Virus record (IMG/VR): IMGVR_UViG_3300044959_000328
Coordinates: 1-37,693 of that record
Length of the DNA: 37,693 bases
Strand: one strand, 5' to 3'
From: a virus
Shown here: piece by piece, positions 1-37,693 of the stretch
How positions within the stretch are numbered: position 1 is the stretch's first letter
How the letters are laid out: every line of letters starts with the position of its first letter
The notes under the pieces: generated by a model
Database searches by the model: none
Seen by the model: the letters and a program-made list of their open reading frames with translations, nothing else
Told to the model about the DNA's origin: nothing
Translations under genes and position numbers: made by a program

Positions 1-129
1 GACCTCCCGCAGGTCGCCATCCACCCACGCATCGGTGTTGGCCAGATAGAGCTCCCCGTGCTTTTGCGCCCCCGCCGCTCGCCATTCAGCTGCAACCCGA
101 CGCGCCGTCTCGGCATCGAAGCCGAAGGC
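1..129. repeat. Terminal direct repeat, left copy
   Basis: Positions 1-126 are identical to 37565-37690. Position 127 is G here and A at 37691, and the last two bases match again. The copy lies inside the giant internal virion gene, and the reading frame runs unbroken across the join. This is what a circularly permuted or circular assembly looks like when cut at an arbitrary point. It is probably an assembly overlap, less likely a real short terminal redundancy. Confidence 0.95.
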
Positions 130-3100
130 CGCAAGCCGCGTAATCTCATCGGCCGACGCACGCCCCTCTGCCACCTTGAGCGAAAGCTCGATCATGTCGC
201 TCTGCAGCAGGGCGCCGGCAAAGCGCTGCGCCCACTGCGTCCACGGCGCCATGAGGTTCAGAAACATCATCATCTCGGCGCCGGACTTGGCGTAACGCTC
301 GAGCAGAGTGTGGTCCGCACCAATGCTCGCCATGTCGTAGAACGCTCGCGACCGCCCAAGCGTCACCAGCTCCAACGCCGCACCGGCCTTGGCCGCCTCA
401 TCACCGCCAAGCCGGAACCCTTCGGCATTTCGGGTGAGGCTCTCCATCACCGACCTCAGGGTGCGCCAGAACCCCGCTGCCATCACCACACGGCCAAGGT
501 CGGCAATCTGCGCCTTCAGGCCGGCACCCATCTGCGTGAGAATGGCGTTGTTGATGAGAAAGCGCACTGCGCGCACCGAATACGCATCGGGGTCCTCGGG
601 AATACGGAAGGTGCCCAGCACCCTGTCCCGCAGGTCGCGCGTCGCTTGCGTGACGGCCTGGAGCTCATCAATCGAGCCGCCTTCGCCACGCGCTACCGCT
701 TTCAGCATCTCGATCTGGTTGGCATAGATCCGCCCCAGCATGGACGGATCGCCAAACTTCCGGCCCATCGCCACCGCCGCCCCCATGCGACGGGCGTATT
801 CGGCAGCACCTGCGCGCTGACTCAGATCCAGGAAGTCATGAATGACCTCTGTCGGCACGTCGATGGTGCGCTCGCGCGCATGACCAGGCCGCTGCCAGTC
901 ATTCCACTCGCTGTATTCCCTTCGGTCGGGCCGCAGGATCTGGTTGAGAAGACCGCTCAGATCGTCCTCAGACCCGCCAACCTGCCGGCCGGGCACTTCC
1001 GCGGACCTCAGAACCTGCTCGACCAGCCGCCCGATACTTTCATCGGGCGTGCGCTTGATCTGCTTCCCAAGCAAGGAGGCAAGCTCGATGCGCAGGCGGG
1101 AGGGCTCGGTCCGCGCAACCCGTTCGTGCAGCTCCTTGGTCAGGTCCGCCGCCAACCCGCTGGCCAGCTGCGGATCCATCCCGCGATCGATCATGGCCCG
1201 GCGGACGACCCGCTCGACCGTGTGCCCGATGCCATCGCCCAGCAGATGCGAAATGGCGACCTCGGCACGAATCTCCGGCGGGGCCCAATCGTGCATTTCC
1301 TGTTCTGCTGCCCAGATCCGGGCGATGCGTTCGACCAGCTCATCCCGCCGCGCGCGCACCTCGCTTCGGATCCAATTCTGCGGCGCATAGGGCTGCGCCC
1401 GCTCTTTCATCTCGGAAAGCAGCTTGCCCCGCTCCAGGAGATAACTCTGATGGCTGCGGATCTCGCGCTCGATCCGCAGCCACTCGGCCATGACCGGATC
1501 TTCCTGCGCTTTCCGATGCGCCCGCTCCGTCCACTCACGGGCAATTTTCTGCGCCTCCGAAAGCTCGGCCGAAATTTCCTTCCGGTTGCGAATGGCCTCG
1601 GCCAATTGCATCCGCGCCGCCTTGGACGGATCGGCCTGGAAACGCTCCCGGCTTTCGCGAAGAAACTCGAACGCGACATCCAGCTTGTGCCAAAGCGCCG
1701 GAATCCGCTCATAGGCCTCCTGGGCCGCCCGCAGCTCTTCGTCCGTGGCACCCATGCGCGCGGCGATCTCGCGCCGCACGTCCTCGAGCTGGCGCTGCAG
1801 CATGATGCTGAGCCGATCCAGCGCGGCTTCGGATTCGGCCCGATACCGCGCGCTCAGCAGCACACCCGCCGCCGCCGCCTCACGCTCGAAAGGCTCATAG
1901 AAGTTCTCGCGCCAGAACCGCGCGGCCTCGAGCACCTCCGGGATCTCGTGCCTGTTCGTCGCAATCGCCAAGCCCACCTGCTGGTCGAACTCGGCGAAGG
2001 AAAGCACCCCTTCCGGCCGGCCGCGGAAGAGGGCGTCGCGCAACTCCTCGACGCGCGTGCGGAACGGCCCCGCCTTCTTCGGGTCCCAGCCGCGATAGCG
2101 GAAATACATCTCCGCCTGGAACCGCTCCGCTGCCGCATACCGCCAGTTCGCCTGGGCCGCGAGCGCTTCGACACTCGCCGTCTCGGTGGCGTATCCCGCC
2201 ACATTGCCGCGGATGCGCAGCCCGGGAATCTGGACGATCTGGTCCGCAAGCCGGGCGATCATGTTGCCCACGCGGCCCCGGAACGTGTTGTTCTTGAGCC
2301 GGTAATACGGCATTTCCATGGTCCGCATCCGCTCGAGACGGATGCCCGTTGCCGCGAGGCGGTCGCTTTCCTCAGGCCCTTCCTTCGGCGCGGCAGCCTC
2401 GCCTTCGGGCGGCTTTGGCGGCTCGGGCCGCGGCTCCTCGGGCGGCGGCGCGGCCGGCTCGCCCTCCGCAGGCGCGGCCGGGCGAGAATCTTCCTCCCCG
2501 GCCGTCGGCTCAGGCGGCCGTCTGACAGGCGGCGTCTCGCCTGCCCGCACGCCAAGATTCCGTTCGATGAGCGCGCCGCGCACCTGCAAAAAGCTGCGCC
2601 GCGTCTTGGCAATCTCCTTTTCCACTTCGCGGAGAAGCGCAGCATCCTTGGAATCCGGCGCTCTCTCGGCACCAGGGAGGAGAAGATCGCGCGCTTTCTC
2701 GAGGTCCCGCAGCGCCCTCTCGAAGATCCCCGCGTATTCTCTCAGCTGGTCCAGCGGCAGCTGGCGGTAATACGAAACCAGCGCCCGATCGTCGAAGTGC
2801 TGGCTTTCAAGCAGCTCCTGCCAGGCCCGGAACTCCTCGCTGTTGAGGAGCTCCTCTTGCGGAGTGCCCTTCAATGCCTCAGGTGGCGTCTCCTCGCCGC
2901 GAAGCAACGGCTCCTTCGGCTCATCGGTTTCGGCGCGAAGCAGCTGCTTCTCCGCTTCCGGCATCCGCGGCTCATGGCGCTCGAAACTCGCTGGGTGGCG
3001 CCAAATCTCGCCCCGCTCCTTGAGCTTTTCCTGCGCCATGCGCACGCGCGCCGCGCCCATGACCTCAAGCCGCCGGAGATCGAGCTTCTCGATGTCGTCA

Positions 3101-25310: not shown

Positions 25311-25339
25311 TTGCATTCCTGCCCAAGGGCAGGTAGAAA
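25311..25339 (+). promoter_or_regulatory. Early promoter with palindrome in spacer (recombination genes)
   Basis: TTGCAT (25311-25316), 17-bp spacer, TAGAAA (25334-25339). The spacer holds the perfect palindrome CCTGCCC-AA-GGGCAGG (25318-25333). Placed in the 57-bp gap before the exonuclease gene. The same design, a dyad in or over the spacer, is seen at 21222. Confidence 0.65.
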
Positions 25340-25358
25340 AGCGCTCAAAGGAGGCAAC

Positions 25359-26072
25359 ATGACAGCCTGCGAAGCGGCCCAGCCGCGGCCCAAGTCCTGG
25401 ACGATCGGGGCGTCCGACGCCCGCGCCCTGATCGACGGCCACCTGCCAAAGCTGGCGGCGATCATCCGCGGCTTCGAGCCGCGGCCGACCGCCGCCGAGA
25501 CGGCCGCCGCTCACGCGGCGGCGCTCAAGGCCAAGGGCGTTCCTCGTGTCAACGAGGACAACCTTGAGCTCGCCATCCTCATTGGAAACGCGCTCGAGCC
25601 GCTGAACCAAGTCTGGTTCGAGCGCAAAACCGGCCTGAAGGTCACCGACCCTCAGTGCCGGGTCGTCCATGCAACCTACCCCTTGCACGCCACGCTCGAC
25701 GGCATCGTCGAGTGGCAGGGCACGCGCTTCCCATGGGAGGCCAAAACCACCGGCCCCCACACAAAGCTCCAAGAGATCATCGACCGCGCCGCCCCGCAAC
25801 TCCAGGCGCAGATGATCTGCTTTGGGGCACACGCAGCCATCGTCTCGGTCCTGTGGCGGACTCCGAAATGGGAGGCCGTCATCGTCGAGACCAACGACGT
25901 GCTCGGCGAAGAGATCCTCGACCGCCTGGATCTCCTTGCCGTGCACATTGACCAAGGAACGGACCCGCCCCAGCTGCCGCCGTTCCCGCTGCCCCGTTTG
26001 GCGTGGAGGCCACTGGCCGTCACCTCCGCGCCGACCACCGAGACGGCCAAAGAAGGAGGTCACACCGAATGA
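25359..26072 (+). CDS. YqaJ/lambda-exonuclease-type recombination nuclease
   Basis: 237 residues from ATG 25359 (AAAGGAGG). The YqaJ viral recombinase core is visible: IGNALEPLNQVWFERKTG (Glu80), HATLDGIVEW (Asp114) and WEAKTT (Glu127-x-Lys129), then Gln-rich LQAQMICFGAH. These residues form the PD-(D/E)XK metal site of 5'-3' double-strand exonucleases. It would resect DNA ends for the annealing protein coded 470 bp downstream, making a two-gene single-strand annealing system used in concatemer formation and repair. Confidence 0.88.
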   Translation: MTACEAAQPRPKSWTIGASDARALIDGHLPKLAAIIRGFEPRPTAAETAAAHAAALKAKGVPRVNEDNLELAILIGNALEPLNQVWFERKTGLKVTDPQCRVVHATYPLHATLDGIVEWQGTRFPWEAKTTGPHTKLQEIIDRAAPQLQAQMICFGAHAAIVSVLWRTPKWEAVIVETNDVLGEEILDRLDLLAVHIDQGTDPPQLPPFPLPRLAWRPLAVTSAPTTETAKEGGHTE

Positions 26073-26545: not shown

Positions 26546-27319
26546 ATGCCATTCGACCGCACCAACCCGAACCTCACCATCTGGCTCCGCGAGATGGCCA
26601 CCGACCCGGCCTTCGAAGGCCGCCCGGTCGTCAAGCCCTTCACCCGCGGCGGCGGGTTCAAAGGCAGCGCGATCAACGCGACATACATCGTCATGAGGCT
26701 CACCCAAGCCTTCGGGCCGGTGGGCTTCGGCTGGGGATACGAGGTCCTTGCCGACGACGTCATCCCCGGCGCGCCGGTGCTGAACAAGTCCGGCGTGCTC
26801 CTGGGCCATGAGCAGGTGCAGCGCACGCGCATCCGCTTCTGGTATTACCCGCACGGCCGCAACGGCGAACGCGCCGAATTCCAGCAGGTCGGGCAGACCA
26901 CCTACGTGAGCTGGTCCGAGAAATTCGGCCGGTTCACGACCGACGAAGAGGCCTGGAAGAAAAGCCTCACCGACGCGATCACCAAGGCCGCAAGCCATAT
27001 CGGCTTCGGGGCCGATGTTCATATCGGCCTCTGGGACGACAACAAATACGTCAACGACCGCACCGCAGATAGCGAAGCCCAGCAGCGCGCGCTCGACCAG
27101 GCAGCAGCGGCCGAGGAAATCGCCGCGACCAAACAGAAAGCCCAGGAAATCATCGAAAACCTGGCGCAAGCCATGGATCCTTCAGCGATCACGCGCCTGC
27201 GCGGCGACGCGATCGCGCTCCGCCCCAACCTCAAGAAACACGGCCTGACGCACATCGAGATGGCAATCGCCAACGCCATCCGTGAAGCGCAGAGCCGCAT
27301 CAACCCCGCAGCCGAATGA
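26546..27319 (+). CDS. Rad52-superfamily single-strand annealing protein
   Basis: 257 residues. Diagnostic stretches: GSAINATYIVMRLTQAFGPVGFGWGYEV (30s-60s), then FTTDEEAWKKSLTDAITKAASHIGFGADVHIGLWDDNKYV at 130-169, which follows the Rad52-like phage recombinase pattern (K-S-x-T-D-A-x-x-K-A-x-x-x-x-G-F-x-A-D-V). The C-terminus is a charged helical tail. It would anneal single strands produced by the YqaJ nuclease. The AGGAGG site is 7 bases before ATG. The downstream gene overlaps by ATGA. Confidence 0.85.
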   Translation: MPFDRTNPNLTIWLREMATDPAFEGRPVVKPFTRGGGFKGSAINATYIVMRLTQAFGPVGFGWGYEVLADDVIPGAPVLNKSGVLLGHEQVQRTRIRFWYYPHGRNGERAEFQQVGQTTYVSWSEKFGRFTTDEEAWKKSLTDAITKAASHIGFGADVHIGLWDDNKYVNDRTADSEAQQRALDQAAAAEEIAATKQKAQEIIENLAQAMDPSAITRLRGDAIALRPNLKKHGLTHIEMAIANAIREAQSRINPAAE

Positions 27320-27597: not shown

Positions 27598-28032
27598 ATG
27601 AACACACTGAACGCCGTCCAGCTGATCGGATACGTGGGTAAGGATCCGGTCGTCCGCCAGACACAGACCGGCCTGAAGGTCGCCTCCCTGCGCATGGCCA
27701 CAAACGAAACCTGGATCAACAAGGAAGGCGAACACCACCAGCGCACCGAGTGGCACAGCGTCGTTTTCTGGGGCGGCGCTGCCGACATCGTCGAGAAATA
27801 CGTTCGCAAGGGCTCGCGGCTCTACGTCCGCGGTAGCCTGCGCACGCGGTATTACGAGGCCGACGGAACGACGAAGTCGATCACCGAAGTCGTCGTCCAG
27901 GGCCTGAGCAGCGAAATCATGCTGCTCGATCCGAAGCCGAGCGAAAACGCCAAGAACACCAAGGCAGCCAGCCGCCCGGCCAGCCGCGAAACCAAGCCGA
28001 TCGAGGAGATTGACGATGACATTCCCTTCTGA
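27598..28032 (+). CDS. ssb: Single-stranded DNA-binding protein
   Basis: 144 residues. A bacterial-type OB fold is clear: NAVQLIGYVGKDPVVRQTQTGLKVASLRMATNETW, then TEWHSVVFWGGAADIVEKYVRKGSRLYVRGSLRTRYYEADG. A short linker and the acidic tip IDDDIPF at the end match the motif by which SSB recruits host replication and repair proteins. AGGAGG ribosome site. The phage probably coats replicating DNA and recombination intermediates with it. Confidence 0.95.
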   Translation: MNTLNAVQLIGYVGKDPVVRQTQTGLKVASLRMATNETWINKEGEHHQRTEWHSVVFWGGAADIVEKYVRKGSRLYVRGSLRTRYYEADGTTKSITEVVVQGLSSEIMLLDPKPSENAKNTKAASRPASRETKPIEEIDDDIPF

Positions 28033-28285
28033 TCTGCCCGTCGACACTCACCACCCGCTGCCAAAGCGAGCGCTGGTGCGCGAGGAAAACGACCGCATCC
28101 GCGCCCGGATCAAGGCGCTCAAGCCAGGCGAGTCGTTCTTCCTCCCCTGCCCGCCGGACTACACGAACCAGCTTTGGCAGGCACGCATCGCAGGCGTCGC
28201 GAACCGCCTGCTGGGCAAGAAGCAGATCACGACACAACAGACCACCGAAAACGGGGTCGTCGGCTTGCGAGTGTGGAAGCGATGA
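28016..28285 (+). CDS. Unknown small basic protein
   Basis: 89 residues if ATG 28016 is used (AGGAG eight bases upstream, 17 bp overlap with ssb); a TTG at 28010 would add two. RENDRIRARIKALKPGESFFLPCPP then WQARIAGVANRLLGKKQITTQQTTENGVVGLRVWKR. Many phages encode small proteins with this plan (I-x-x-L-x-x-G-E-S-x-x-x-P ... A-x-R-x-G-K/R ... G-x-R-V-W), probably DNA-binding. Function unknown. Confidence 0.7.
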   Translation: MTFPSDLPVDTHHPLPKRALVREENDRIRARIKALKPGESFFLPCPPDYTNQLWQARIAGVANRLLGKKQITTQQTTENGVVGLRVWKR

Positions 28286-29001
28286 ACCCGCTGCGCGTCC
28301 TCGACCTCTTCGGCAACCTGGGCAATTTCACGCTCGGGCTGGAACGAACCGGCGCATTCAAGACCGTCGCGTTCTGCGAGCCCAACCGCTCGCTGCGCGA
28401 GGCGCTCGCACGGCGATGGCCGGGAGTGCCGGTCTTCGAAAGCCTCGAAGCGATCACGCGCGAACGGCTTGCCGCAGACGAACTCAAAGTCGACGTCGTC
28501 TGCGGCGGCTTCCCGCCCCATGACTTCATTGGCAAAACCGTGAGAAAGAAACGGGGCGAGGAGGCTTGGCGCGAGCAGGTCCGCATCCTTCTGCAGGCGC
28601 GGCCGCGCTGGGTCATCCTCGAAATAAGCCCAGCCTTTTCGGGCCTAAACCTCAAGCGGATCATGGGGCTGTTCCGCACCATCGGCTTCGTAAGCTGGTG
28701 GGGCCAACTCCCACCGGACGAAGACGACGTGAACGGACGCCTATGGATCGTCTCCGGCAATCTCAGGCGAGGGGCGCCGCCGTCTTTCGGGCGAGAAACC
28801 TGCGACTGGGAGATCCGTTCGGCAATCGCCGAACGGCACGACTGGGGTCTCGACCCAAAGGCGCTCGAAGCCGCACGCGAGATCTCCGGCCCGGTCAGCC
28901 GAGTCCAGATGTTTTCGTCGTCCTTCCACGTCACGATTGCACAGGCCATCGGCGAAACCATCCGGAAGTTCGAGACGGCCGCCGCCCAGCCCACAACCTG
29001 A
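28282..29001 (+). CDS. Catalytically dead cytosine methyltransferase-like protein
   Basis: 239 residues from ATG 28282 (ATGA overlap). It aligns along nearly its whole length with the active enzyme at 30542-31348: LRVLDLF ... LGLERTG-F--VAFCE, LAR-WPGVP, VD-VCGGFP, WREQ-RI--, RPRWV, GRLWIV, EIR-AIAER. Every active-site motif is changed: motif I SGIGG to GNLGN, motif IV PCQ to PPH (catalytic Cys now Pro79), motif VI ENV to EIS, motif VIII VRNR to VNGR, motif X GNAVYP to SSFHVT. The frame is intact, so it is kept for a non-catalytic purpose. It sits in the early unit after SSB. Confidence 0.88.
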   Translation: MNPLRVLDLFGNLGNFTLGLERTGAFKTVAFCEPNRSLREALARRWPGVPVFESLEAITRERLAADELKVDVVCGGFPPHDFIGKTVRKKRGEEAWREQVRILLQARPRWVILEISPAFSGLNLKRIMGLFRTIGFVSWWGQLPPDEDDVNGRLWIVSGNLRRGAPPSFGRETCDWEIRSAIAERHDWGLDPKALEAAREISGPVSRVQMFSSSFHVTIAQAIGETIRKFETAAAQPTT

Positions 29002-29020: not shown

Positions 29021-29398
29021 ATGACGTCGAAGCGAACCCGCACCACATCCACCCGAAACATCGCGCCCACGCTGCCGCCTGAACTCGAAGGTGCGGTCAA
29101 GGTCGCACGCCTGATGCTGACCAGCGCCAATCAGGACCAGGCCGTGCAGATCATGGAGAAAATTTACGCCCTCGTCTGCGGCTTCGATGCACCCACCATC
29201 CTGGTCGCGCTCACCAGCTACATCGCGGACTCGACCATCAAAGCCGCGCTGGAGGCGAAAAAACGCGGGCAGGAAGATCACTGCGCGATGATCATCCACC
29301 TGCCCTGCGTGATGCTGACCATGCTCCTCCAGACAGGTTGGGAAGCGGAATTGCAGTCCGCGGAAAACGCGAGCGTCGAAACGCCCGAAAGTTCCTGA
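29021..29398 (+). CDS. Unknown helical early protein
   Basis: 125 residues from ATG 29021, AAGGAGA site. A basic Thr-rich start (TSKRTRTTSTRN), then LPPELEGAVKVARLMLTSANQDQAVQIMEKIYALVCGFDAPTILVALTSYIADSTIKAALEAKKRGQ and a hydrophobic segment HCAMIIHLPCVMLTMLLQTGW that could be a buried helix. No known domain. It is followed by the terminator region 29439-29585. Confidence 0.75.
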   Translation: MTSKRTRTTSTRNIAPTLPPELEGAVKVARLMLTSANQDQAVQIMEKIYALVCGFDAPTILVALTSYIADSTIKAALEAKKRGQEDHCAMIIHLPCVMLTMLLQTGWEAELQSAENASVETPESS

Positions 29399-29527
29399 CG
29401 TGCCCTCTTCCCAAACGGGCAACCAAGCCCTATACGACTGGACGGGACGGGTCGCCTCCTCCCGTCCAAGCGCCCATGCAAGGGACTCGCATCGCCGATT
29501 CAGCAGGCGGCGGAGATGCGAGCCTAA

Positions 29528-29585
29528 GGCGGAAGTCGGCCAGGGCTTTTCGGTGTGGGCCCCGGTCGGCTTCCGCCGATTTTTT
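29528..29585 (+). terminator. Rightward Rho-independent terminator
   Basis: Stem GGCGGAAG/CTTCCGCC (29528-29535, 29570-29577), extended inward by CGGCC/GGTCG with one wobble pair, then GA and six T (29580-29585). The only rightward terminator with a real T run in the early unit. ardC beyond it would need its own promoter or antitermination. Confidence 0.78.
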
Positions 29586-29613
29586 GGAGAACAAGCCATC
29601 GCGCCACCCCGCC

Positions 29614-29723: not shown

Positions 29724-30587
29724 ATGCGAAAAGAAACACTCGAACGCCTGACCGCCCACGTCTGCCACCTGCTGGCCAACGAGGGCATGATCACCTTCGA
29801 CCGCTTCGCCAGAATGGGAAGCCGGCCCATCCGCTTCTCAACCGGCGCCCCATACCGCGGCGGCAACGCCGTCGTCCTCTGGGCCACCGCCGAGATCAAG
29901 GGCTACAACTCGCCATTCTGGCTGACATTCAAGCAAGCCAAGGAAGCCGGGGCACACGTCCGCAAGGGCGAAACCGGAACCCTCATCCTCTACGCCGACC
30001 GCTGGAAGCCGGCCGACGCCGACGAGGACACGCCCGAGCGCGTCTTCATGCGCGCATACACCGTCTTCAACGCCGAGCAGGTCGAGGGGCTGCCCGAGAC
30101 CTACTACGTCCGCATGCGGCGCCCCGAAGGCTTCGACCCCATCCCGAGGGCCGAGGAGTTCGTGAAGAACACCGGCGCCGTCGTGCAGGAGGGAAAGAGC
30201 GGCGCCTTCTACTGCGCGAGCGATGACACCATCCGCATGCCGGACCGGCGCGCCTTCAGCGACGCCGAAGGCTTCTATGCCACCTTGCTGCATGAGCTGG
30301 TCCATTGGACCGGGGCCGAGCAGCGGCTGAACCGCCTGCCGAACGCGAAGTTCGGGGATCCGAGCTATGCCCGAGAGGAGCTGGTGGCCGAGCTCGGAGC
30401 GGCCTTCCTCTGCGCCGATCTGCAGCTCAGCAAGGCACCGCGCGAGGACCATGCCCACTACCTCGCTGGCTGGCTCCGGGCCCTTGAGAAGAACCCCATG
30501 GAACTCTGGTCGGCCGCCAGGGCAGCCGAAACCGCAGCAGACTACCTCTGGCAGAAGCAACCCTCGCGCGAGCAGCAGGCGGCCTGA
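29724..30587 (+). CDS. ardC: ArdC-type antirestriction protein with zinc metallopeptidase motif
   Basis: 287 residues from ATG 29724 (AGGAGG). N-terminal ssDNA-binding ArdC domain (about 5-130): GGNAVVLWATAEIKGYNSPFWLTFKQAKEAGAHVRKGETGTLILY. The C-terminal zincin domain has HELVHWTG (His190, Glu191, His194) and a downstream EELVAELGAAFL supplying a third ligand (Glu223). ArdC of plasmids protects incoming single-stranded DNA against restriction; phage copies likely do the same on entry. Last gene of the early unit, running 46 bp into the opposing methyltransferase gene. Confidence 0.9.
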   Translation: MRKETLERLTAHVCHLLANEGMITFDRFARMGSRPIRFSTGAPYRGGNAVVLWATAEIKGYNSPFWLTFKQAKEAGAHVRKGETGTLILYADRWKPADADEDTPERVFMRAYTVFNAEQVEGLPETYYVRMRRPEGFDPIPRAEEFVKNTGAVVQEGKSGAFYCASDDTIRMPDRRAFSDAEGFYATLLHELVHWTGAEQRLNRLPNAKFGDPSYAREELVAELGAAFLCADLQLSKAPREDHAHYLAGWLRALEKNPMELWSAARAAETAADYLWQKQPSREQQAA

Positions 30588-31348
30588 TCCCAGCGAGGGG
30601 GCGTCTCCGCAACAGACGCCCCCTCGAACTTCAGGATGGCGCTTCCGATCGCCTCGACAACCGCCGGGTAGACGGCGTTGCCGAGGGCTCGAATTCGGTC
30701 CACCCGACGGGGAACCCCATGAACCACTCGCACCATTCCGGGTTCAGCGGCCCGCCCAGCACGTTCGGCAATTGCTGCCCGGATTTCCGCATCGAACGCC
30801 TCAGGCGTGAAGGGCCGTCCGGCCTGTTGGGATGCCGAAAATCCCTCGCGCATAGCGTGGGCAACAATCCAGAGGCGGTTTCGCACGTGGTGCGCGCCAA
30901 CGGCGGAAGCGGGAATGCAACCCCACCAGCCCACCAACCCCAACGCATCGAGCGCAACAAGGAGGCGTTCAAGTCCGCGAGTGAGCAAGGCGGCCACGTT
31001 CTCCATGACAACCCAGCGCGGACGGACTTCCTGGACGATCCGGATTTGCTCACGCCAAAGCCCGGATCGCGGTCCATCGATCCCGCCGCCGCGTCCGGCG
31101 ACAGAAATGTCTTGGCAGGGAAAGCCGCCACAGACCAGGTCAACGGCAATTCCATCTGCCGCGAGTCGCGCACCCGTGAGCGTCCTGACGTCATCGTAGA
31201 TCGGCACCCCCGGCCAGTGCCGCGCAAGGACTTGGCGCGGGAAGGGTTCGCATTCGCAGAACGCAACAACGCGAAAGCCCCCGGTCCGTTCCAGGCCCAG
31301 CGAAAACCCGCCAATGCCGGAAAACAGATCGAGGACCCGGAGCTTCAT
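30542..31348 (-). CDS. C5-cytosine DNA methyltransferase
   Basis: 268 residues, ATG 31348 in ATGA overlap. All catalytic motifs are present: motif I DLFSGIGG (7-14), motif IV GGFPCQDIS with nucleophile Cys79, motif VI MENVAAL (Glu116), motif VIII VRNR (155-158), motif X ALGNAVYP (221-228). The target-recognition region between VIII and X is very short, so the recognised site is probably short. It lies at the end of the late unit, so it would methylate progeny DNA before packaging, shielding it from host restriction. An additional C-terminal Cys-rich tail (CCSREGCFC) is unusual. Confidence 0.93.
   Translation of the reverse strand: MKLRVLDLFSGIGGFSLGLERTGGFRVVAFCECEPFPRQVLARHWPGVPIYDDVRTLTGARLAADGIAVDLVCGGFPCQDISVAGRGGGIDGPRSGLWREQIRIVQEVRPRWVVMENVAALLTRGLERLLVALDALGLVGWWGCIPASAVGAHHVRNRLWIVAHAMREGFSASQQAGRPFTPEAFDAEIRAAIAERAGRAAEPGMVRVVHGVPRRVDRIRALGNAVYPAVVEAIGSAILKFEGASVAETPPRWDQAACCSREGCFCQR
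30595..30625. terminator. Hairpin in the convergent overlap, possible bidirectional stop
   Basis: A perfect 12-bp stem GAGGGGGCGTCT/AGACGCCCCCTC (30595-30606, 30614-30625), loop CCGCAAC, starting 7 bp after the ardC stop and inside the end of the methyltransferase frame. No T run on either side. Best placed structure to end both converging transcripts. Confidence 0.6.
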
Positions 31349-34565: not shown

Positions 34566-36896
34566 CTAAACCCTCGGTTTCACGGCCCTGACAAACAACG
34601 TTCCCGCCCCAACCGTGATCGACCCGGACGACACATTCTGCGCCGTCACACGCACCTGGTTCGTCCCCGCCGTGCCACCCACCACGGCATGAAACACCAC
34701 CCCACCATTCTGGAAACCACTGTCCTTCGCGTGCGACGCCTGCACGAAATCCCCCTGCCGAACACCCGTAAGCGTCACATCCAACGTCGTCGTCGCACCC
34801 GCCGACAAAGCCGGCACGTCCCACGTCACCGACGTCCGGAGCTCACGACGCCCCCAATTCCTCGAACCACCATAGATCAGCCGCGGCGCATGCTCGGCAG
34901 GCGCAAACAGCCGCAGCGCCGAAACCCGCGCCGAAGACGACCCACCACGCACCCCAATCACCGCAAACCTCGCATCCGCATGCAACGTCACCCGCTGCAA
35001 CCTGAACAACTCGAACCCGCCCGACTGCGCATCCAGATTGGCATTCGCCTCCCACCAGAACGAAGGCGAACCCAAGAACGCAATGTCCATCCCGGACAAA
35101 CGCACACGCTTCGTGCCGTCCAGCACATTCTCGGACGCATCGAATTGCATCACAATGAGCCGAAGCTCACTGCCCTCCGCAGCCAGGAAAAACTCCTTGC
35201 AGCGCGAGCAATCCACCACGAACCCGAGCGCACGACTCGTCGGAAGCGTCACATCCTCGGCATTCGCCGTCAGACTGCTGAGCCCAGGAAAGCAGAAGCC
35301 GTTCAGCGTCGACGGCGGCCCCGCAGGATTACCGGAAAGCACCGCAAGCTTGTCGCAGCCAAGCTCCGTCGCAGACCACCGGAACAGCGCCGCGCGGACA
35401 TTGTCGACCTCCCCAACCAGCCGCGGCGTCGCCACCGCCCCAATCGCCTGGTGCAACGGCACCACCGCACCACCAGCCCGGGCCGCCGAGCTCCCGTAGT
35501 CCACCGCGCAGCCCGTGAACCCATAGGTGCCGACATACGACACTTCATACAGCGCATCGCTGAAGGTGCCCGTATGCCGCGCCACGAACGGACTGCACTG
35601 CTCCATCCGCACGCCAACGGCCCTAAGGCCACGCCCGTCCACCTCGACGAGGAACGGAATGGCATCCACCGTCCCCACCGGAGTGCCCTGACGCTGCAAC
35701 TCAAAGGCCGGCCCGAAGAAGCTATGGGCGTTGTGCAGCACGTAGGCCCCCGACGCTGCCGATAGCCGCACCCCGAACCGGCTCAGCGTCGGATGCGTCG
35801 TGCTCTGATTGGCGAAATGCCCGCCAATATACCGGTTGGCATTGTTCCAACTCGTCGCGGAAAGCGTTCGAATGTCGAGGCCGTAGCGGCAATCAATCAG
35901 GCGGCCCAGCGTGAACGTGCTGTCCTCGACGCCATAGCTGCCGGCCCCGAGCGTCTGCACCCCGATGGTAAAGCCGGACACCTCCACAATCTCGACATGA
36001 CCCGCATCGAGATTGATGATCTGAATCCCGACCTCCGCCTCATTGGTCCAGCTGCTCAGAGTGTCCCGCACAACCCGCAGGCCACGCGCAACGAAGGCCT
36101 GGTTGCGCGCCGACGTCGAACCGATCACCAGCGCAGGCGCGCCGACCACCGTCGAGATGATCTGCCCCTGCATCACCACCTGCGGCACGCCTACCGGGAT
36201 GGTCACGGTGTTGGCACAACGAAACCGGCCAACCAGATGCAGCGGACGACCGACCGACGCGGCATATGCCGCAGCGGCATTCAAAGCCACCGTGTCATCC
36301 CCCGTCCCGTTCCCGAGCGCCCCAAAGAACAGGGGATTGACGGCATCGGAAACCACCGACGCCAGCGTCCTCGCCGTCGTCGCCCCGATCGCCGTCACCG
36401 TGTCGGCCGACTTGTCCAGCTGCGACAACGCAATCGGCTCGCCCGCCTCGCTGAAACCGAGCACCTTGCCCGCCCGGTTGGTCAGGCTCGGCAGCCTCGC
36501 ACTGGCCGGATCGCCATCCGGCAGCCGCAGCGTCTGCTCCAACCGCCGCACATGATCCTGCAGCGCCATCCAGAACCGGCTGATCTCGCGGTTCAGCGGA
36601 CGAACCGGAAACGACCCGGAGGTCGGAAACAGAACGTCCTGCTCGAGCACCGTATCGCGCTGAATGGTCACCACCGAATTCGTGACCGGATTCAGAAGCT
36701 CGGCCGCTGCGCCCTGGTAGAACCCGTCCTGCTCCAGCCCGCCAACCACCGTGAAGTCCACGGGGGAGCCGTTGACGAACACCCGGAGATCGGTGGCGTC
36801 GTCAAACGGAAAAGGCACCGGAAAGACCTGCTGCGACACACTGCCGACCGAATACTGCACCACACTGGCCGTCGAGGTGACGCGAAAAGAGCTCAT
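34566..36896 (-). CDS. Tailspike with T7 gp17-like head-binding domain
   Basis: 776 residues. The N-terminal about 150 residues (VVQYSVGSVSQQVFPVPFPFDDATDLRVFVNGSPVDFTVVGG ... PLNREISRFWMALQDHVRRLEQTL) match the T7 tail fibre attachment domain. From about 190 GALGNGTGDDTVALNAAAAYAAS marks the start of a pectate-lyase-like beta helix that runs to about 600, typical of capsule- or LPS-binding and cutting spikes. The C-terminal part is beta-rich. Starts by ATGA overlap with the giant protein stop. Gives host-range specificity. Confidence 0.9.
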   Translation of the reverse strand: MSSFRVTSTASVVQYSVGSVSQQVFPVPFPFDDATDLRVFVNGSPVDFTVVGGLEQDGFYQGAAAELLNPVTNSVVTIQRDTVLEQDVLFPTSGSFPVRPLNREISRFWMALQDHVRRLEQTLRLPDGDPASARLPSLTNRAGKVLGFSEAGEPIALSQLDKSADTVTAIGATTARTLASVVSDAVNPLFFGALGNGTGDDTVALNAAAAYAASVGRPLHLVGRFRCANTVTIPVGVPQVVMQGQIISTVVGAPALVIGSTSARNQAFVARGLRVVRDTLSSWTNEAEVGIQIINLDAGHVEIVEVSGFTIGVQTLGAGSYGVEDSTFTLGRLIDCRYGLDIRTLSATSWNNANRYIGGHFANQSTTHPTLSRFGVRLSAASGAYVLHNAHSFFGPAFELQRQGTPVGTVDAIPFLVEVDGRGLRAVGVRMEQCSPFVARHTGTFSDALYEVSYVGTYGFTGCAVDYGSSAARAGGAVVPLHQAIGAVATPRLVGEVDNVRAALFRWSATELGCDKLAVLSGNPAGPPSTLNGFCFPGLSSLTANAEDVTLPTSRALGFVVDCSRCKEFFLAAEGSELRLIVMQFDASENVLDGTKRVRLSGMDIAFLGSPSFWWEANANLDAQSGGFELFRLQRVTLHADARFAVIGVRGGSSSARVSALRLFAPAEHAPRLIYGGSRNWGRRELRTSVTWDVPALSAGATTTLDVTLTGVRQGDFVQASHAKDSGFQNGGVVFHAVVGGTAGTNQVRVTAQNVSSGSITVGAGTLFVRAVKPRV

Positions 36897-37693
36897 TGCC
36901 TACCCCCCATGAACCCAGGCAGTCGCGGCTCCGGCAGCCGCGGCGGCGGCGACTGACGAAACGCCGTGGCCGCCTCCTGCGTGACGGCGCGGAAAAGCCA
37001 GTCAATATACAGCAGATTCTGGAACCAGATCGTCCTCCGAATCGCCCCTGCCACCTGGTCAGCCTTTGCATCGGGATCGGTCAGCGCCCATACAACCGTC
37101 AGCCATGGTGCAAGCGCAGGACCGCCAATCGCCGTAGCCTGCTGCGCCCAATTGACCTCCCGCGCATAGGCCGGGGGATCCATACCCAGCAAAGGACGAA
37201 GCCCAATGCTGTTCCGGCTGACCAACTCGACCGCAGTATTGATGTCGAACAGCAGGCCCAACGCACCCGAACGCTCGACCGCAGTAAACAACCTCTCGGA
37301 GGAGAAAATCGGGTGGCGCGCGAACGGCCCGCCGGGCGCATCCCCCAGCAGCCACGCCAACGCAATGGACGAGAGAATGCCCGAAAGCACCAGCGCATCG
37401 CGCTGCTGGAGCCCTGCCATCAGGATCCGCTGCGTGGCCGCGATCGAGAAACCCTTATACATGAAGATCATCTGGCCAAGCGGCGCACTCATGAAATTCG
37501 GCCGGTCTGCCGCGCCAGGCCGCACCACCGCCGCATCCACCGCCGTGCGCAACGCCGCCCGAAAGACCTCCCGCAGGTCGCCATCCACCCACGCATCGGT
37601 GTTGGCCAGATAGAGCTCCCCGTGCTTTTGCGCCCCCGCCGCTCGCCATTCAGCTGCAACCCGACGCGCCGTCTCGGCATCGAAGCCGAAAGC
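36893..37693 (-). CDS. Giant internal virion protein, C-terminal part
   Basis: An open frame from the right edge to a TGA at 36893, in the same frame as the gene at 1-5712 once the 129-base terminal repeat is removed; together about 2127 residues. This part has RPNFMSAPLGQMIFMYKGFSIAATQRILMAGLQQRDALVLSGILSSIALAWLLGD, a hydrophobic pattern found at the C-terminus of many large podoviral ejection proteins, and a Pro-rich end PPPRLPEPRLPGFMGG. The stop overlaps the tailspike start (ATGA). Confidence 0.85.
   Translation of the reverse strand, partial: AFGFDAETARRVAAEWRAAGAQKHGELYLANTDAWVDGDLREVFRAALRTAVDAAVVRPGAADRPNFMSAPLGQMIFMYKGFSIAATQRILMAGLQQRDALVLSGILSSIALAWLLGDAPGGPFARHPIFSSERLFTAVERSGALGLLFDINTAVELVSRNSIGLRPLLGMDPPAYAREVNWAQQATAIGGPALAPWLTVVWALTDPDAKADQVAGAIRRTIWFQNLLYIDWLFRAVTQEAATAFRQSPPPRLPEPRLPGFMGGRQ
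37565..37693. repeat. Terminal direct repeat, right copy
   Basis: Same as 1-129 except A at 37691 instead of G. See the left copy. The base difference suggests two variants in the sampled population or an end-of-contig error. Confidence 0.95.

Follow-up and report, generated by a model that had tools for sequence, protein, structure and literature searches.

In animals and plants, C5-cytosine methyltransferase paralogues without catalytic activity are already known to act as regulators. DNMT3L in mammals and DRM3 in plants are paralogues of this kind, each supporting an active methyltransferase (PMC2965745). A dead C5-methyltransferase can also bind DNA tightly and site-specifically: M.EcoRII-C186A, a catalytic-cysteine mutant, binds its sites very tightly and in E. 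coli acts as a barrier to replication forks (PMC4437897). Mutants of the motif VIII arginines lose catalysis, and their DNA binding is kept or raised (PMC4802922). Anti-restriction proteins of the ArdC and DarA/DarB types, which act in DNA protection in mobile elements, guard incoming DNA by binding it (PMC5512222). A literature search of incomplete coverage found no description of dead C5-methyltransferase paralogues in phages.

Here we describe P1, a 239-residue protein encoded at 28282-29001 on the plus strand of a viral genome record (IMG/VR IMGVR_UViG_3300044959_000328; all 37,693 nucleotides were analysed and are called the window). Its homology, motif state and predicted fold identify it as a putative pseudo C5-cytosine methyltransferase. 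Like DNMT3L and DRM3, P1 is catalytically mutated and coexists with an active sister, here P3; unlike them, it is of independent phage origin and lacks chromatin-reading domains. As in M.EcoRII-C186A the catalytic cysteine is replaced, although that protein carries a single laboratory point mutation whereas P1 has many further losses. The outcome that we propose for P1 resembles that of ArdC, DarA and DarB, and an ArdC-like gene lies near P1, but the folds are unrelated, and protection is only a proposed effect of P1. The nearest class is that of the phage C5-methyltransferases (PF00145, PHROG 363; P3 the nearest member, M.HhaI the structural type). P1 is like them in homology, predicted fold, length and layout, and differs in lacking the catalytic cysteine, the ENV asparagine, the first QxRxR arginine, the motif I glycines and motif X. 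No second member of the family in this state was present among the sequences collected or in our pattern scans.

Results

The P1 reading frame runs from ATG to TGA without an internal stop. Profile searches place the protein in the C5 cytosine methylase family of Pfam, PF00145 (E=3e-11, 43.6 bits, cut-off 22), and in PHROG 363 (E=1e-17); against NCBIfam TIGR00675 it reaches just 26.4 bits, below the cut-off of 100.65. A preliminary description of this DNA had proposed that the phage encodes two related proteins of the C5-methyltransferase fold, the second of them intact. Both points hold. P1 and P3 share 41% identity over 248 columns (E=5e-60), and P3 (268 residues; 30542-31348, minus strand), which matches PF00145 and PHROG 363, has all the standard C5-methyltransferase motifs. 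Sequencing error or a chimera can be ruled out as the source of P1, given this identity to P3 and a frame that is kept throughout. Hardly any other gene of the phage has a third-position G+C content (GC3) or a codon score as low as those of P3 (0.70 and 0.07), as if P3 had joined the genome, or been released, later than P1.

Alignment to the family shows how far P1 has departed from an enzyme. Motif I, FSGIGGF in the family, is FGNLGNF (28309-28329), with FSGIGG replaced by FGNLGN. PCQ of motif IV has become PPH (28513-28521), so that proline 79 stands in place of the catalytic cysteine. Motif VI reads EIS rather than ENV (28621-28629), its glutamate kept and its asparagine lost. In motif VIII (QxRxR), HHVRNR has changed to DDVNGR (DVNGR, 28726-28740), the first arginine lost and the second kept, and motif X is SSSF in place of GNAV (28915-28926). 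The motif III aspartate is absent (D53 of P3 is a serine in P1), the serine that follows PCQ is replaced (S82 to I), and part of the catalytic loop that follows motif IV is missing, its conserved arginine (R94) included. P1 thus combines the homology and predicted fold of an active C5-methyltransferase with the absence of PCQ, of ENV, of the paired QxRxR arginines and of SAM motifs I and X.

The alterations listed in the preliminary description, in motifs I, IV, VI, VIII and X, are all present. Its wider statement that every catalytic motif is erased is borne out at ten key positions, all of them lost, and overstates the case for the motifs as a whole, because P1 retains the motif I phenylalanine and middle glycine (F10 and G14), the motif II glutamate (E33), the PCQ proline (P78), the ENV glutamate (E114) and the second motif VIII arginine (R153). 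These surviving pocket residues could be read as those of an active enzyme of another type, in which a remodelled pocket serves another cofactor or reaction. We consider this very improbable: the cysteine, the ENV asparagine, the first motif VIII arginine and motif X have gone together, and none of the relatives collected conserves an alternative motif. We predict, with little room for doubt, that P1 is a catalytically dead C5-methyltransferase.

The scaffold appears to have survived this loss. An AlphaFold2 model of P1, built from a 63-sequence alignment, has the C5-methyltransferase fold (pTM 0.79), with low confidence at residues 193-211, which adjoin the recognition segment. Its best matches among solved structures are to HhaI methyltransferase (Z 20.4, 2.9 Å over 202 residues), the comparison that the preliminary description had suggested. 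Because active enzymes dominate the alignment, the model partly inherits their fold. A model of P3 from its single sequence (pLDDT 41) was left out of the analysis. Kept together with the scaffold, as had been proposed, is the segment EIRSAIAER in the recognition region (28810-28836). Among 172 full-length family members aligned, P1 and P3 included, the pattern EIRxAIAER occurs in P1 and P3 only.

These relatives were gathered from IMG/VR and GTDB genomes by short exact patterns, among the matches listed; P3 peptide patterns, including CGGFPCQD, matched at least 599 stretches. Finding relatives in this way biases conservation within the patterns upward, and the key test below was rerun without those columns. 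Against the ten key catalytic and SAM positions lost in P1, 157 members have lost none, 13 have lost one and a single member two. The cysteine of PCQ, absent from P1, is invariant in the 171 aligned relatives. The member with two changed positions (L048:5983-6735) has FSAVSGAF as its motif I.

A PPH variant next to recombination genes in related phages, which the preliminary description had suggested looking for, did not turn up: in 2.9 million viral contigs, the patterns GGFPPHD and CGGFPPxD gave chance matches only and no further methyltransferase. A scan of the same contigs for CGGFP[S/A]QD returned one real fragment, the rest being chance matches. That fragment (L260:812-835) belongs to a viral C5-methyltransferase with PSQ for PCQ, a lone cysteine-to-serine change with the remaining motifs intact, and is possibly a second, much milder loss of the catalytic cysteine. 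No P1 orthologue was found in the viral, phage, plasmid or bacterial collections searched, nor in 385 genomes from the class of a related locus, L095 (Sphingomonas). Neighbouring genes (a 91-residue reading frame and an Erf-like protein), used to search viral contigs, led to no kin of the phage.

P1 lies in an operon of recombination genes on the plus strand. Upstream are a RecE-like exonuclease (25311-26072, PHROG match), a recombination-type gene (26546-27319, PHROG 7838), a single-strand DNA-binding protein (27598-28032, profile matches) and a small gene with no family match in Pfam or PHROG (28016-28285), the stop of which overlaps the P1 start in an ATGA at 28282-28285. The downstream gene (29021-29398, plus strand) has AAGGAG before its ATG. 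Further on is an ArdC-like anti-restriction gene (29724-30587, plus strand; ArdC N-terminal domain and MPTase-PolyVal by profile matches), the 3' end of which overlaps that of P3 on the opposite strand. Few polyvalent proteins of the phage type carry an ArdC N-terminal domain (PMC5512222). P3 runs in the direction of the structural and lysis-type genes, on the minus strand. From gene content only, we infer that P1 is early and P3 late; consensus scans for promoters and terminators stayed at chance level. Between the 29021-29398 gene and the ardC-like gene, at 29525-29595, GGCGGAAGTCGGCC ... GGTCGGCTTCCGCC look like the arms of an inverted repeat, and a run of T comes after them; this structure was noticed by eye, is not listed by the consensus scan, and possibly marks the end of the operon. 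On the minus strand, the frame of a giant virion protein continues without a break from one end of the record into the other when the two are joined (window 1-600 and 36893-37693), which suggests a complete, circularly permuted genome, though no end repeat was found.

The ArdC-like neighbour could place P1 in anti-restriction by another route. As a dominant-negative decoy, P1 would mimic the C5-methyltransferase subunit of a host defence system (type II restriction-modification, DISARM or Druantia III) and poison the complex. P1 does score about equally on the MTase_II and DruM profiles; these equal scores reflect only common family membership, however, and the closest kin of P1 is the phage's own P3. 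A decoy role is therefore improbable.

Several features tie P1 to P3. P1 is about 41-43% identical to P3 (42.5%) and at most 38% identical to the other relatives aligned. In the tree the two are sisters (support 99/86). The terminal branch of P1 (5.67) is about ten times the median (0.59), and long branches are hard to place in trees; that of P3 (0.57) is of ordinary length. Across the recognition region P1 is 40% identical to P3, compared with a mean of 17% and a maximum of 32% for other relatives. Net charge is also alike (+3.8 for P1 and +3.9 for P3, against a family mean of -2.1), and both the recognition segment and a C-terminal KFE segment hold residues common to P1 and P3 alone. The simplest reading of these sequences is that P1 arose by duplication inside the P3 lineage and then diverged fast; with one genome known, separate acquisition is a possible alternative.

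The main rival to the role that we propose below for P1 draws on this same kinship. P1 could be a partner, as DNMT3L is for DNMT3A, forming a heteromer with P3 or a host C5-methyltransferase to stimulate, restrain or redirect it. Two sister paralogues in one genome, the residues that they alone share in the KFE and recognition segments, and the way in which DNMT3L and DRM3 act all fit such a role. Against it, P1 and P3 belong to separate operons that are read from opposite strands, P1 among recombination genes and P3 after the structural and lysis genes, and bacterial C5-methyltransferases mostly act as monomers. On balance we regard a partner role as unlikely.

Is P1 a working gene or a wreck? 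A decaying relic would be a duplicate that lost its function, is eroding and remains open by chance, and the very long branch and lack of an orthologue in the collections searched are what such a relic might show. Four-fold degenerate sites are saturated between P1 and P3 (22 of 62 identical, with 32% expected at random). All four indels between the two proteins are nevertheless in frame. P1 scores 158 bits against the family profile, far above neutral copies of P3 simulated to equal identity (60 ± 15, maximum 101). Losses fall on the catalytic and SAM columns, assigned after those of HhaI, more often than on the remaining conserved columns (p=0.024, or p=0.041 once the pattern-biased columns are left out). 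Codon score and GC3 (0.79, against 0.70 in P3) are typical of genes of this phage, and the start is coupled to the preceding gene through ATGA. When whole-gene neutral erosion was simulated, with the erosion of the P1 catalytic columns as its clock, no stop arose in 2% of runs at a G+C of 0.66, close to the window value; across the G+C values tried this chance ranged from 0.75% to 12.5%, which in high-G+C DNA is not negligible. Phage genomes rarely retain 720 idle bases inside an operon.

Each of these retention tests is modest singly; jointly they favour a kept gene, and whole-gene neutral decay fits poorly. We judge a relic unlikely and consider P1 probably functional. The preliminary description had argued for a pseudoenzyme under selection. 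Preferential loss of catalytic and SAM columns, an open, codon-biased and coupled gene and a kept scaffold agree with that view; selection after catalysis was lost is likely rather than established. Scaffold retention may be partly older than inactivation, and the collections searched yielded no orthologue that could give a direct sign of purifying selection on P1 after inactivation.

Discussion

We propose that P1 is a duplicate from the lineage of the phage's own C5-methyltransferase, P3, that it lost catalysis and probably SAM binding too, and that it has been kept as a non-enzymatic protein of the recombination operon. P1 would still bind P3-type DNA sites. Occupying them ahead of P3 synthesis, it would hide them from host restriction or delay their methylation. 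Because the P3-like recognition segment is kept in P1, occupancy of sites asks for the fewest assumptions. The preliminary description had put forward three candidate roles: hiding sites from restriction, regulation by a SAM-less protein, and pairing with the active enzyme. The common segment favours binding to the same sites, and placement in the operon is a mild argument for a role that precedes P3 production; the eroded catalytic loop and motif X may weaken DNA binding. Both DNA binding by P1 and the timing of its expression are what we infer from the sequence. We put site occupancy forward tentatively, as a mechanism that may well prove wrong, and the account taken as a whole, from duplication in the P3 lineage to early occupancy of P3-type sites by a dead but retained protein, is likewise possible rather than probable.

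Taken more broadly, P1 is probably a strongly degenerate, functional pseudo-methyltransferase, known from one genome, and selection has likely maintained it since catalysis was lost. It might be a selected phage protein that controls or replaces methylation, by site occupancy or by pairing with its active paralogue, and so an independent viral counterpart of DNMT3L, born of a duplication inside a single phage lineage; we offer this as a conjecture that falls somewhat short of probable. If it is true, this phage example would show that loss of catalysis can likewise open the way to a new role, whether against restriction or in setting when DNA is methylated. P1 and P3 form a two-gene system small enough for direct testing at the bench.
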